Assembly: GCF_029223585.1 (NCBI RefSeq)
Contig: NZ_CP119424.1
Location: 310,001-374,000, forward strand
Source of the DNA: Photobacterium sp. DA100
GTDB lineage: Bacteria > Pseudomonadota > Gammaproteobacteria > Enterobacterales > Vibrionaceae
Direction: 5' to 3'
DNA length: 64,000 nt
A program made the translations under genes and the position numbers. Numbering within the stretch: the first letter of the stretch is position 1; each line of letters begins with the position of its first letter. Below are positions 42,892 through 46,530 of the stretch, piece after piece. The notes beneath the pieces were generated by a model. It was given only the letters and a program-made list of their open reading frames with translations, did not search any database and was not told the DNA's origin.

Positions 42892-43611
42892 ATGCTGGCT
42901 TCTGTGCTGAGAACTTTGATGCTGATAGTATGTTTGGGATTTGTATGGCCTAGCCATGCAGGCTCAGCCATGCCTGTATCAAGCTATACTCCAGCACAGG
43001 ATCATAGTGTGGGCCATGGTGTCGATAGTACGTCCAGTGACTATCTGCCAATGGCGTTTTCTAAGCAGTTGGCGCAATCGGCATCTTTTGACCGTTTTTT
43101 TGCCACCGCCCACGGTATCCGTTTGCAGCAGCCCGATGAGCAAACTCCATCGCTGCTTTCCGATGCTGCTAGCGGATTAGAAAGCCTGCTCGACGGGCCT
43201 CAGTCTGCACAGCTCCAGTCCTCGCCCTCAAAGGTTTCTCAAACTGATCTCTCTGCTTTATTTAAGATGGATCAGGGTGATTTGACTGAGGCAGGACATA
43301 ATTTCGGTCATTCCCATTCCAATGACAACCAGCACTCCAATCACAGCCGTAGTTTAGATCTTGCAATCGCGGCATCCAGCCGATTTGCCAACTTGCTTCG
43401 TCACGACCCAGAAGAGATTGAGCCGGCCTATCAACTGGCTATTGAACTGCCTGTCGAGCCGGTCCCCAGTTTTGTTAAGGGCTACCAGGTCGACATGCTG
43501 CCGTCTTTGGATTGGATGCTGAATACCACTCCTCCTTCGGGCCGGATTTCCGGTTGGAAGGAGTCCAACCTCATCTATACCGTTTACCACCATCGCTTGC
43601 CAATGGCGTAG
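42892..43611 (+). CDS. VemP-like export-monitoring arrest peptide upstream of secDF2
   Basis: A 239-residue exported peptide with a signal sequence (about 1-25) and a polar, Ser/His-rich middle (HSHSNDNQHSNHS near 140-150). Its C-terminus reads RISGWKESNLIY (218-229) and ends ten residues later. As I recall it, V. alginolyticus VemP carries a very similar RISGWKE segment just before its arrest site (Trp143-Lys144, stall at Gln156, total 159). Here the Trp is residue 222, so the equivalent site would be near Arg235, 4 codons before the end. The middle region is longer than in VemP. It lies immediately upstream of secDF2, the partner expected for VemP. No clear ribosome binding site is seen. 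Homology is recalled, not searched. Confidence 0.7.
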   Translation: MLASVLRTLMLIVCLGFVWPSHAGSAMPVSSYTPAQDHSVGHGVDSTSSDYLPMAFSKQLAQSASFDRFFATAHGIRLQQPDEQTPSLLSDAASGLESLLDGPQSAQLQSSPSKVSQTDLSALFKMDQGDLTEAGHNFGHSHSNDNQHSNHSRSLDLAIAASSRFANLLRHDPEEIEPAYQLAIELPVEPVPSFVKGYQVDMLPSLDWMLNTTPPSGRISGWKESNLIYTVYHHRLPMA

Positions 43612-43808
43612 TCCGCCATCGATCTAATCTGGCCTGTTAGTGGCCAGGAATGTTGAACCTTGCCTGTTAGCACTCCATCAATGCCAGTGCTTAATTGCTG
43701 AGTATTGCTGTGAGAATGGGCAGGGGCGGTAATTGATACTGTTATCCAATTTTCGGAAAACAGGCGCTGCTCATTTCAATGAGATGGGCAAGCAAACCAG
43801 TGGTATAG
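43575..43808 (+). promoter_or_regulatory. Long-range RNA pairing between the vemP-like 3' codons and the secD2 start region
   Basis: CTATACC (43575-43581) pairs with GGTATAG (43802-43808), which ends 3 bases before the secD2 ATG. GCTTGCC (43595-43601) pairs with GGCAAGC (43787-43793). The two 7-bp helices are in register and can stack. Local hairpins lie within the intervening sequence: ATGGCG/CGCCAT at the stop codon (43603-43619), CTGGCC/GGCCAG (43629-43647) and CTGTT/AACAG (43739-43764). A ribosome stalled near codon 235 (43594-43596) would cover both upstream arms and free the secD2 start. Confidence 0.55.
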
Positions 43809-43811
43809 AAT

Positions 43812-45632
43812 ATGAGAAAAAAAGCCCCTCAGCGGTTAATCAACCATTACCCCGCTTGGAAGTATGTTGTCCTAATTGTCACATTGGTTGTGATGATGCT
43901 AAGCGCTATTCCGACCTGGTACGGCGAAGATGCTGCCGTAGAGGTTTCGGCCAAAGGAGTGCCGGTACCTGATGTTGTTCAACTGCAACACACCTTGAAG
44001 CAGCATGACATTGCGGTTAAGCGTATCGACCAGCAATCCGATAACACCTTGGTGGTGCTTGCCGATGAATCTCAGCAGACAGCTGCCCGTACTGTGCTGG
44101 CCGAGGCAATGGGGCCTAACAGCGATTCGCAGCTGACCTTGGCTATGACACCGGCTGCTCCGGTATGGTTGCAGAGCATGGGCTTTGCGCCGATCAAGCT
44201 CGGCCTCGACCTTCGCGGCGGCGTGCAGTTCTTGCTAGATGTGGATATGAACCAAGTCTACCAGGCCCAGGCTGAATTGTTGCAAGATGAGCTGCGCCAG
44301 GAGTTCCGCCAGCAGGGGATCCGTAATACCCGCATCGAATCGGTCGCTTCGGATACCTTGCTTGTGCGCCTTCCAAACAGTGAGGCCAATGGCAAAGTTC
44401 GTCAGTTCATCCGCCAAAACTACCCTCAATGGCAAGTGACCAACGAGTCGGGCCATGGTGTGAGACTCGCCTTGAAAGCTGATGAGCAAACTCAGCTCAG
44501 AAACCTAACTGTTCAGCAAAACTTGCAAACGATGCGTAGCCGTATTGAAGAGTTGGGGATCACTGAAGCCTTGGTTCAGCGTCAGGGGGAAAACCGTATC
44601 CGCATTGAGCTGCCGGGGGTTCAAGACCCGGCTGCGGCAAAAAGTGTTATCGGTGCGACCGCCAGCTTGGCTTTCTACCCGGTCCGTGAACTGGGCAGCG
44701 GCAGTACGATGACAATCAATGATGAACACGGCAATCCGGTACGCGTAGCACGCAAGCCAATCCTGAGCGGTGATCATATCGTCGATGCCCGTGCCAGCTT
44801 TGGCGAAATGGGTATGGCCGAGGTGAACATCAACCTCGACAGCGCTGGCGGCAAGATCATGTCTGACTTTTCGCGTCAGAACATCGGCAAGCCAATGGCG
44901 ACCGCGTTCAGTGAATACAGCCGCGATAGCGAGGGCAATGCGGTACAGGAAAGCAAGATCATCAGTGTCGCGACCATCCAGAGCCAACTGGGTAACCGCT
45001 TCCGTATCACCGGTGCAGGCTCTATCCAGGACGCTCAGCAATTGGCATTGCTGCTGCGTGCCGGCTCGCTGACTGCTCCTGTTACCATTGTTGAAGAGCG
45101 AACTATCGGCCCAACTCTAGGGGCGGAGAATATTGAGAATGGTTTTGCGGCACTGGCACTGGGCATGGGCCTGACCTTGATTTTCATGGCACTGTGGTAC
45201 CGACGCCTGGGCTGGGTAGCGAATGTTGCGCTGATCTTCAATATGGTGATGCTGTTTGGTCTGCTTGCCATGATCCCCGGAGCCGTGTTGACGTTGCCGG
45301 GTATCGCTGGTCTGGTGCTGACCGTCGGTATGGCGGTTGATACCAACGTACTTATTTTCGAGCGTATTCGCGACAAGCTCAGGGAGGGCCGTAGCCTGGC
45401 CCAGGCCATAGACCGTGGTTTCAGCAGTGCTTTTAGCACTATTTTCGATGCCAACTTCACCACGATGATCACTGCCGTTGTGCTATACGCCATCGGTAAT
45501 GGCCCGATTCAAGGCTTTGCCCTGACTCTGGGGCTCGGCCTGTTGACCAGTATGTTTACCGGTATTTTTGCTTCCCGCGCCATTATTAATCTGGTGTGGG
45601 GTCGTGATGCTCGACGTGAGGTGCGAATTTAA
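43812..45632 (+). CDS. secD: SecD2: second copy of protein-export membrane protein SecD
   Basis: A 606-residue SecD. It has an N-terminal membrane helix (about 15-35), a large periplasmic P1 region (FAPIKLGLDLRGGVQFLLDVD) and a C-terminal membrane part with TVGMAVDTNVLIFERIRDKLREG, a conserved proton/cation path motif. SecDF uses an ion gradient to pull exported proteins across. Its position behind a VemP-like gene and separate from other sec genes marks it as the second (SecDF2) set found in Vibrio; the primary set should lie elsewhere. Start ATG 43812 lies in the sequestered region described above. Confidence 0.92.
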   Translation: MRKKAPQRLINHYPAWKYVVLIVTLVVMMLSAIPTWYGEDAAVEVSAKGVPVPDVVQLQHTLKQHDIAVKRIDQQSDNTLVVLADESQQTAARTVLAEAMGPNSDSQLTLAMTPAAPVWLQSMGFAPIKLGLDLRGGVQFLLDVDMNQVYQAQAELLQDELRQEFRQQGIRNTRIESVASDTLLVRLPNSEANGKVRQFIRQNYPQWQVTNESGHGVRLALKADEQTQLRNLTVQQNLQTMRSRIEELGITEALVQRQGENRIRIELPGVQDPAAAKSVIGATASLAFYPVRELGSGSTMTINDEHGNPVRVARKPILSGDHIVDARASFGEMGMAEVNINLDSAGGKIMSDFSRQNIGKPMATAFSEYSRDSEGNAVQESKIISVATIQSQLGNRFRITGAGSIQDAQQLALLLRAGSLTAPVTIVEERTIGPTLGAENIENGFAALALGMGLTLIFMALWYRRLGWVANVALIFNMVMLFGLLAMIPGAVLTLPGIAGLVLTVGMAVDTNVLIFERIRDKLREGRSLAQAIDRGFSSAFSTIFDANFTTMITAVVLYAIGNGPIQGFALTLGLGLLTSMFTGIFASRAIINLVWGRDARREVRI

Positions 45633-45633
45633 T

Positions 45634-46530
45634 ATGTTGATTACTATGAAAAATGCAACAAAATGGCGCCACTTCACGAGTGTCGTCTCGATTATTTTGC
45701 TGATTGGCTCTTTGGTCGCTATTTCGGTTAAAGGCCTGAACTGGGGGTTGGATTTCACCGGTGGTATCGTCACGGAAATCCAAACGAACAGTGCGCTAAC
45801 CAGCCACGAAATCAACCAGCAGCTTGATACCGAGCTGGGTCAGGATGTCAGTGTCATCGCGGCCGGCGAGCCGGGACGCTGGGTCTTGCGTTATGCCATT
45901 CCCGAGCAAGGCGAAGCGCCGGATGTTTCCGCCGCAATGCACAGTCTTGATGCGCAGCTTCAGGTGCTAAATACCAGTATTGTCGGCCCGCAGGTTGGGC
46001 AAGAGTTGGCGGAGCAGGGCGGCCTGGCTCTGCTGATTGCAATACTGTGTATCCTTGGCTACCTGAGTTATCGCTTCGAGTGGCGCCTGGCGTCGGGTTC
46101 GGTGTTTGCCCTGGCGCATGACGTTATTTTCGTCCTGGGCTTCTTCGCCCTGACCCAGATGGAGTTCAACCTGACGGTGCTGGCCGCTGTTTTGGCTATT
46201 TTGGGTTACTCGTTAAATGACTCGATTATCATTGCCGACCGTATCCGAGAGTTGTTGATGTCAAAACCGGACAAGCCGATTGAAGACATCAATAACGAAG
46301 CGATAGCGGCGACGATTTCCCGCACCATGATCACGTCGGGTACGACACTGCTGACTGTCGGCTCTCTGTGGCTATTGGGAGGTGGGGCGCTGGAAGGGTT
46401 TGCCATTGCGATGTTCATCGGTATTTTGACGGGCACCTGGTCTTCGGTCTCGGTCGGCACCGCGCTGCCAGAGTTGTTTAAACTCAATGCGTCACACTAC
46501 AAGCTGGAGCCGGTTTCACAAGAGCCGTAA
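45634..46530 (+). CDS. secF: SecF2: second copy of protein-export membrane protein SecF
   Basis: A 298-residue SecF. It has the LNWGLDFTGGIVTEIQT start of the periplasmic region, six membrane helices and the VLAILGYSLNDSIIIADRIRELL motif. It partners SecD2. The start follows the secD stop by one base (GAGG upstream), so the two are translated together. An ATG at 45646 is an alternative start. The operon ends at a strong terminator. Confidence 0.92.
   Translation: MLITMKNATKWRHFTSVVSIILLIGSLVAISVKGLNWGLDFTGGIVTEIQTNSALTSHEINQQLDTELGQDVSVIAAGEPGRWVLRYAIPEQGEAPDVSAAMHSLDAQLQVLNTSIVGPQVGQELAEQGGLALLIAILCILGYLSYRFEWRLASGSVFALAHDVIFVLGFFALTQMEFNLTVLAAVLAILGYSLNDSIIIADRIRELLMSKPDKPIEDINNEAIAATISRTMITSGTTLLTVGSLWLLGGGALEGFAIAMFIGILTGTWSSVSVGTALPELFKLNASHYKLEPVSQEP

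Follow-up and report, generated by a model that had tools for sequence, protein, structure and literature searches.

What does the 239-codon open reading frame (ORF) ahead of a second secD-secF pair in Photobacterium sp. DA100 do, and how closely does it follow the export monitor VemP of Vibrio alginolyticus? The locus lies in a 64,000-nucleotide stretch of contig NZ_CP119424.1 (positions 310,001 to 374,000), here called the window, whose own numbering is used unless a contig is named. A sequence-only reading had described an ORF with a signal-like N-terminus and a C-terminal RISGWKE segment at this place, and had proposed a VemP homologue of extra length with a stall residue other than Gln. 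Our results make it very likely that the window ORF is a VemP-type export monitor of secD2F2 and, by analogy with V. alginolyticus, it would most likely switch on this pair when export slows. The features concerned are as follows.

42892..43611, + strand: putative VemP-type monitoring-substrate ORF; ATG start, 239 amino acids (aa) plus stop
42892..42960, + strand: signal-peptide-like N-terminus, residues 1-23; likely cleavage between SHA and GS, from inspection of the translation
43360..43383, + strand: short hydrophobic segment (SHS) L157AIA, then three residues and Arg164; counterpart of V. alginolyticus L78ALF ... Arg85
43543..43578, + strand: arrest anchor R218-ISGWKESNLI-Y229, from motif, alignment and whole-genome scan
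43579..43608, + strand: lineage-specific tail T230VYHHRLPMA239, proximal to the peptidyl transferase centre (PTC); predicted P-site residue Arg235 (43594-43596)
43575..43582, + strand: 5' arm of a predicted helix, CTATACCG, within the arrest codons, from minimum free energy (MFE) folds
43801..43808, + strand: 3' arm, TGGTATAG, the secD2 ribosome-binding region, from MFE folds
43612..43811, + strand: vemP-secD2 leader, 200 nt; folding z -3.1 and -3.8 against shuffles
43812..45632, + strand: secD2, from NCBIfam and Pfam
45634..46530, + strand: secF2, from NCBIfam and Pfam

The coordinates and the scores of SecD2 (1077.9 bits on NCBIfam PRK12933, cut-off 728) and SecF2 (274.5 bits on TIGR00966, cut-off 160) confirmed the gene order described earlier. 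The DA100 genome, of 6.01 Mb in two contigs, carries its other SecD/SecF pair on contig C1, indicating that the pair in the window is a second set. RISGWKE occupies residues 218-224 of the 239-aa ORF, the C-terminus of which reads SGRISGWKESNLIYTVYHHRLPMA. By inspection of the translation, the N-terminus, MLASVLRTLMLIVCLGFVWPSHA followed by GS, resembles a signal peptide (Arg7, a hydrophobic run, and SHA before GS), and both start codon and signal-like region are conserved in a related locus (L009). The ORF yielded no match in Pfam or NCBIfam, nor to any PDB sequence at E values up to 10, neither it nor its leader matched Rfam, and we found no terminator-like site between vemP and secD2.

The window ORF shares with V. 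alginolyticus VemP its place before secD2F2, a signal sequence, an SHS with Arg three residues on, and the RISGWKExNxxY core. From Arg164 to Trp222 there are 58 residues, the same spacing as from Arg85 to Trp143, and the SHS (L157AIA-ASS-R164) stands accordingly ahead of W222; roles have been reported for both SHS and Arg85 in V. alginolyticus VemP (PMC11470409, PMC7793623). An RxxxWKxxNxxY-like motif is present as R218-ISGWKESNLI-Y229, the spacer from signal to arrest site measures about 210 residues (threshold, more than 30 aa), and the ORF lies on the same strand as secD2, 200 nt ahead of it. Placed in register with V. alginolyticus W143-Q156, the predicted stall position is Arg235, at +13 from Trp222 as Gln156 is from Trp143. 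The two proteins differ in that the window ORF is 79 residues longer ahead of the SHS (Arg164 versus Arg85) and ends in TVYHHR where V. alginolyticus VemP has VALNSQ. The proposed homologue with extra length is thus borne out by the Arg-Trp spacing, the core motif and the 79 additional residues.

Homology also exceeds chance, since DNA encoding GWK[ED]xNxxY occurs at only three places in the 6.01-Mb genome and a reversed-pattern control at none, and the window ORF is under purifying selection. Compared with P. lutimaris, P. rosenbergii and P. pectinilyticum, the ORF taken as a unit showed nonsynonymous divergence (dN) of 0.19-0.22 and synonymous divergence (dS) of 1.16-1.32. By segment, dN was 0.05-0.11 for residues 206-229, 0.10-0.12 for residues 230-239 and 0.33-0.54 for residues 26-140, with 0.03-0.04 for SecD2 in the same three species. 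Besides the core, a central segment, PxYxLAxExP ... DWxL, is conserved.

A protein search returned 29 proteins, the named ones being Photobacterium hypothetical proteins, with the nearest from P. gaetbulicola (92% identity). Within the genus the window ORF was matched in 45 of 52 genomes, and the other seven have a V. alginolyticus-like WKETNAMYVA; across the order, a profile of the C-terminal part matched 90 of 394 genomes. Of 105 secD2 loci confirmed in species genomes, we examined the best 80, which cover Photobacterium, Shewanella, Aliivibrio, Grimontia, Enterovibrio, Motilimonas and Vibrio. Each is preceded by a VemP-like ORF, 78 being recognised by regular expression (stop-to-stop frames of 150-252 aa) and L058 and L060 by reading.

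To describe conservation we used 76 representatives, left when 137 distinct ORFs were reduced at 80% identity; they include 29 profile hits (L130-L158) for which the following gene was not inspected individually. Counting from the anchor Trp, R-4, W0, K+1 and N+4 are invariant and Y+7 is Tyr in 68, although the regular expression that chose the representatives already demands W and limits other anchor positions. Positions +8 to +14, on the other hand, show entropies of 2.4 to 3.4 bits, with Asn at +11 and Gln at +13 in 13 representatives each, and Arg stands exactly at -58 in 48. In a SecD tree of 54 rows, made by a quick method with long branches flagged, all 13 rows with a YVALN-type tail fall on one side of a single branch (SH-aLRT 99), with the window outside. 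As sequence patterns, these fit a fixed anchor joined to a lineage-specific PTC module. One genome (G131; L161, L163) has two sensor-secDF operons with different tails, of which one is YVALN-type.

These distributions did not sustain the novelty claimed for the window ORF. With Gln at +13 in just 13 of the 76, a non-Gln stall residue is nothing special and was dropped as such. Its greater length does not support novelty either, as long spacers are usual in these secD2 loci, and 339 VemP-like sequences with an 'RxxxWKxxNxxY-like' motif, with a median spacer of 133, had already been counted by Fujiwara et al. 2024 (PMC10987492). According to that source, the screen covered upstream ORFs (uORFs) of less than 300 aa before secA, secDF and yidC only; the window ORF shares with the set its size, its place before secDF, a localization signal (by inspection) and the motif. 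It is therefore a further member of a known family, from a lineage with a PTC-proximal sequence unlike the studied one. The earlier description did not cover the fixed anchor as opposed to the variable PTC-proximal part, the predicted pairing of the Shine-Dalgarno (SD) region with arrest codons, or the motif before other genes.

How could such an arrest reach secD2? The fold predicted for 43540-43840 is better than that of every one of 100 shuffled sequences (z -3.8), and in it TGGTATAG, ahead of the start codon (ATG) of secD2, is paired with CTATACCG of the arrest codons. Over 79 loci, the ribosome-binding region (15 bases) formed a mean of 6.32 pairs with nucleotides +14 to +62 of the W codon, versus 1.20 when the rest of the leader was shuffled, with at least five such pairs in 59; L058 and L060, with a regular-expression hit in an overlapping frame, were dropped from these counts. 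A longer 5' flank, applied to every second locus, gave 5.70 versus 0.90 pairs and at least five in 25 of 40, and the YVALN-type loci had at least five in 5 of 7. The predicted partner of the secD2 ribosome-binding region is thus the stretch of arrest codons that a stalled ribosome would occupy. An arrest peptide before secDF2 whose stalled ribosome opens an SD-hiding stem, as the predicted stem in the window would be opened, is also found in uDF_RQH_Enterobacterales, which differs in having an R-G-P-P motif at the PTC and lacking the VemP anchor (PMC10987492).

The VemP-type assignment rests on gene order, motif, Arg-Trp spacing, conservation, purifying selection and predicted leader pairing, and by analogy with V. 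alginolyticus we infer export-sensitive arrest, force release and secDF2 induction. The signal peptide would target the ORF product to the Sec translocon and, during fast export, the pull on the nascent chain would allow translation to continue to its end. Once export driven by SecDF1 becomes inefficient (in Vibrio, at low Na+), the chain would be held in the exit tunnel by R218-xSGWKExNxxY229. The ribosome would then stall with about Arg235 in the P site, covering arrest codons that are otherwise paired with the secD2 ribosome-binding region, and secD2F2 would be translated.

Several results weigh against this proposal. Of the 15 positions that the V. alginolyticus consensus HRIXGWKETNAMYVXLNXX specifies, the window ORF is identical at only eight (R, I, G, W, K, E, N and Y); we therefore do not class it as a V. 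alginolyticus-type arrest sequence, and V151, L153 and N154 are replaced by T230, Y232 and H233. In a single BLASTP comparison with a V. alginolyticus-type VemP (L128, identical to the published 'long' segment over its final 29 residues) just 13 residues aligned, RISGWKESNLIYT, at E 1e-4. The accessory element (hydrophilic)xP, placed 18-20 residues before Arg and highly conserved among Vibrio orthologues (PMC11470409), is also a point of difference, as the corresponding residues 144-146 read N-D-N and lack Pro. We detected no promoter-like site upstream. The leader loci are related, hence their counts are not independent events, and a plain duplex test was weaker, with 17 of 79 loci at p<=0.05 (4 expected) and p 0.21 for the window alone.

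Cryo-electron microscopy of V. alginolyticus VemP shows Asn154 (+11) clashing with U2585 and U2506, and in the same source S141A and S155A are the sole changes without influence (PMC5449182); the consensus above treats Gln156 as a space-filler (PMC7897499), so that the two sources disagree over the importance of this residue. Simulations place a rigid anchor at about I140-K144/N147 (PMC8887479). An essential motif away from the stall site with less conserved PTC-proximal residues is likewise known from uC_KYxIW / CliM, although this system belongs to Clostridia, stands before yidC and has an unrelated motif (PMC10987492; PMC13183943). PTC silencing in the window ORF would use a C-terminal sequence unlike that of V. 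alginolyticus VemP.

The motif was also followed through wider scans. In the DA100 genome the three places are the window, C1:1776325 before a dedA-type gene, and C2:827317 (minus strand) before a SEDS (rodA-type) gene, here rodA2. A stricter pattern gave 43 sites in 150 family genomes and 67 in 394 genomes of the order, with no control site in either scan. Thirty sites were fetched from each, those from the order all lying outside the family of the window, and 60 of these 60 (110 found) are at the C-termini of short ORFs. In the family 22 stand before secD, five before rodA2 and three before dedA; in the order 25 stand before secD, three before dedA followed by secD, and two before an S41-type peptidase gene (47 secD, 6 dedA, 5 rodA2 and 2 S41 overall). 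The last two (L337 and L338, in two genomes of family f17) are ORFs with …GWKDANLIYK… that precede the peptidase gene and not secD; in L337 the N-terminal S41 domain alone was recognised, in a shorter frame. The order VemP-type ORF, dedA, secD occurs in L317-L319 (family f19) and L240 (G063).

Among the alternatives, the one that survives best, although unlikely, is a stall at the stop codon or elsewhere than +13, for instance a termination arrest, with regulation unchanged. Among related ORFs some are too short for +13, namely three of the ten representatives of the DedA group (ending at +12) and one RodA2-linked ORF (ending at +11), and +13 as a universal stall site was therefore dropped and kept for the secD group. 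In that group, however, all 76 representatives extend to at least +13, and the stop lies 14 to 20 residues from the anchor (25 in L321), so that its distance is not fixed. Quite improbable is a relic, a former VemP that lost its PTC-proximal residues and no longer stalls, leaving secDF2 constitutive. The window ORF does lack L153 and N154, important or PTC-blocking in V. alginolyticus (PMC5449182); nevertheless, the anchor is invariant over the 76 representatives, most of which lack the V. alginolyticus tail, sister-species dN is 0.05-0.12 for anchor and tail versus 0.33-0.54 for residues 26-140, and the predicted leader pairing is kept. Least credible is an ordinary exported protein that merely shares the secDF2 operon and whose C-terminal motif works outside the cell, as the signal-like N-terminus and conserved central segment would allow, because the motif occurs almost solely at the ends of ORFs before secD, dedA, rodA2 or S41 genes (all 60 of the fetched sites), corresponds to an arrest motif that was mapped by experiment, and has codons predicted to pair with the downstream ribosome-binding region.

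An export monitor of secD2F2 thus remains our preferred explanation for the window ORF, and its arrest module seems, from the sequences, to be reused for other envelope genes. We lean slightly towards a broader proposal, in which the VemP anchor would be a portable export-sensing module, with a conserved anchor and interchangeable tails, that induces secD2F2, a dedA-type gene and rodA2 by stalling and unmasking when export or ion-motive force fails. In DA100 alone it would end three different leader proteins, exported or membrane-anchored, and in relatives the dedA-type gene comes with chaA-like antiporter genes. To a specialist, the surprising part would be the apparent presence of one anchor at the end of leader ORFs that precede rodA2, dedA and further envelope genes. 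Nearly all of the VemP mechanism derives from one sequence, in which Asn154 and a PTC-proximal helix block the ribosome; if the 63 of 76 lineages without this Asn retain the anchor, the PTC must be silenced by other tails or the anchor must have a larger role than assumed. Should the module control rodA2, dedA or S41 genes, export monitoring would extend past the Sec machinery to cell-wall synthesis and to membrane or ion homeostasis, and screens confined to sec and yidC uORFs would have missed such loci. Motif ORFs before rodA2, dedA, chaA-like and S41 genes fall outside the scope of the Fujiwara screen as given in PMC10987492, and the literature searched, largely outside subscription journals, contained no report of motif ORFs before dedA, rodA or chaA-like genes.

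The two other motif ORFs of the DA100 genome are:

C2:827296-827763 (L160:4794-5264), - strand: rodA2-linked VemP-motif ORF, ending in NHRLGGWKEANTQYRSIAEPH and a stop
C1:1775896-1776366 (L159:3397-3870): dedA-linked VemP-motif ORF, from the motif scan, ending in RLSGWKEGNLLYSHRVG and a stop

The rodA2-linked ORF has about 150 aa, a hydrophobic N-terminus and a second hydrophobic stretch just ahead of the motif. The gene that follows, rodA2, scored 383.9 bits on TIGR02210 (RodA cut-off 336.7). It represents a third SEDS gene in DA100. A profile search of 296 family genomes gave 13 strong matches, each located before rodA2; 12 belong to the genus and one to a different genus. The motif is kept in 12 and missing from P. 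aquae (L216/L230). Three of these ORFs end in WKESNAIYRALNDHPV, WKESDAFYRALNSHPV and WKESNALYKAINGHPITA, near V. alginolyticus WKETNAMYVALNSQFSA, with a different protein body. Their dN/dS was 0.12-0.15 in the three of six pairs with computable dS. Nine of the 12 rodA2 leader loci used gave a start codon, and eight of these nine showed at least four paired bases (shuffled means 0.76-1.58; L212, zero); taken singly, three reached p<=0.05, and two of the nine are near-identical. In these predicted folds, rodA2 leader pairing resembles that of secD2.

The dedA-linked ORF of DA100 has 157 aa, a signal-like N-terminus and, as in VemP, Arg at -58, and is followed after 452 nt by the dedA-type gene (PF09335, 68.6 bits; cut-off 33.9). 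Of eight strong matches in the genus, six precede dedA and the other two a ChaA-like gene (PRK10599, 324 bits, short of the cut-off of 505) with dedA further on; dN/dS was 0.12-0.43 over six pairs. Leader pairing is unsupported overall for these loci: of 17 leader-start combinations, six had at least five pairs and one p<=0.05, and nine had zero or one paired base, close to or below the mean of the shuffles.

In Vibrio-like genomes a ChaA-like gene comes after vemP-secDF (L163), and the order vemP-ChaA-like-dedA also occurs (L165), making secDF loss from a longer operon a plausible route by which the dedA/ChaA-linked sensors may have arisen. In L184 and L185 (G031, G011), a decayed-looking secD start, VKKLTKHHLINHNAKWQCAVL, lies between the VemP-type ORF and the ChaA-like gene, which hints at loss of secDF with retention of the sensor. 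Between sensor and dedA, L159 (3870-4323), L179-L182 and L186 carry a small ORF of about 83-90 aa (in L181 the frame is longer), which recurs in related species and putatively encodes a membrane protein with a single hydrophobic stretch. Finally, between L159 and L180 (G000 and G012), the window ORF is 100% shared, the rodA2-linked ORF 99%, DedA 96% and the dedA-linked ORF 65%, which suggests replacement or fast change at the dedA-linked locus.

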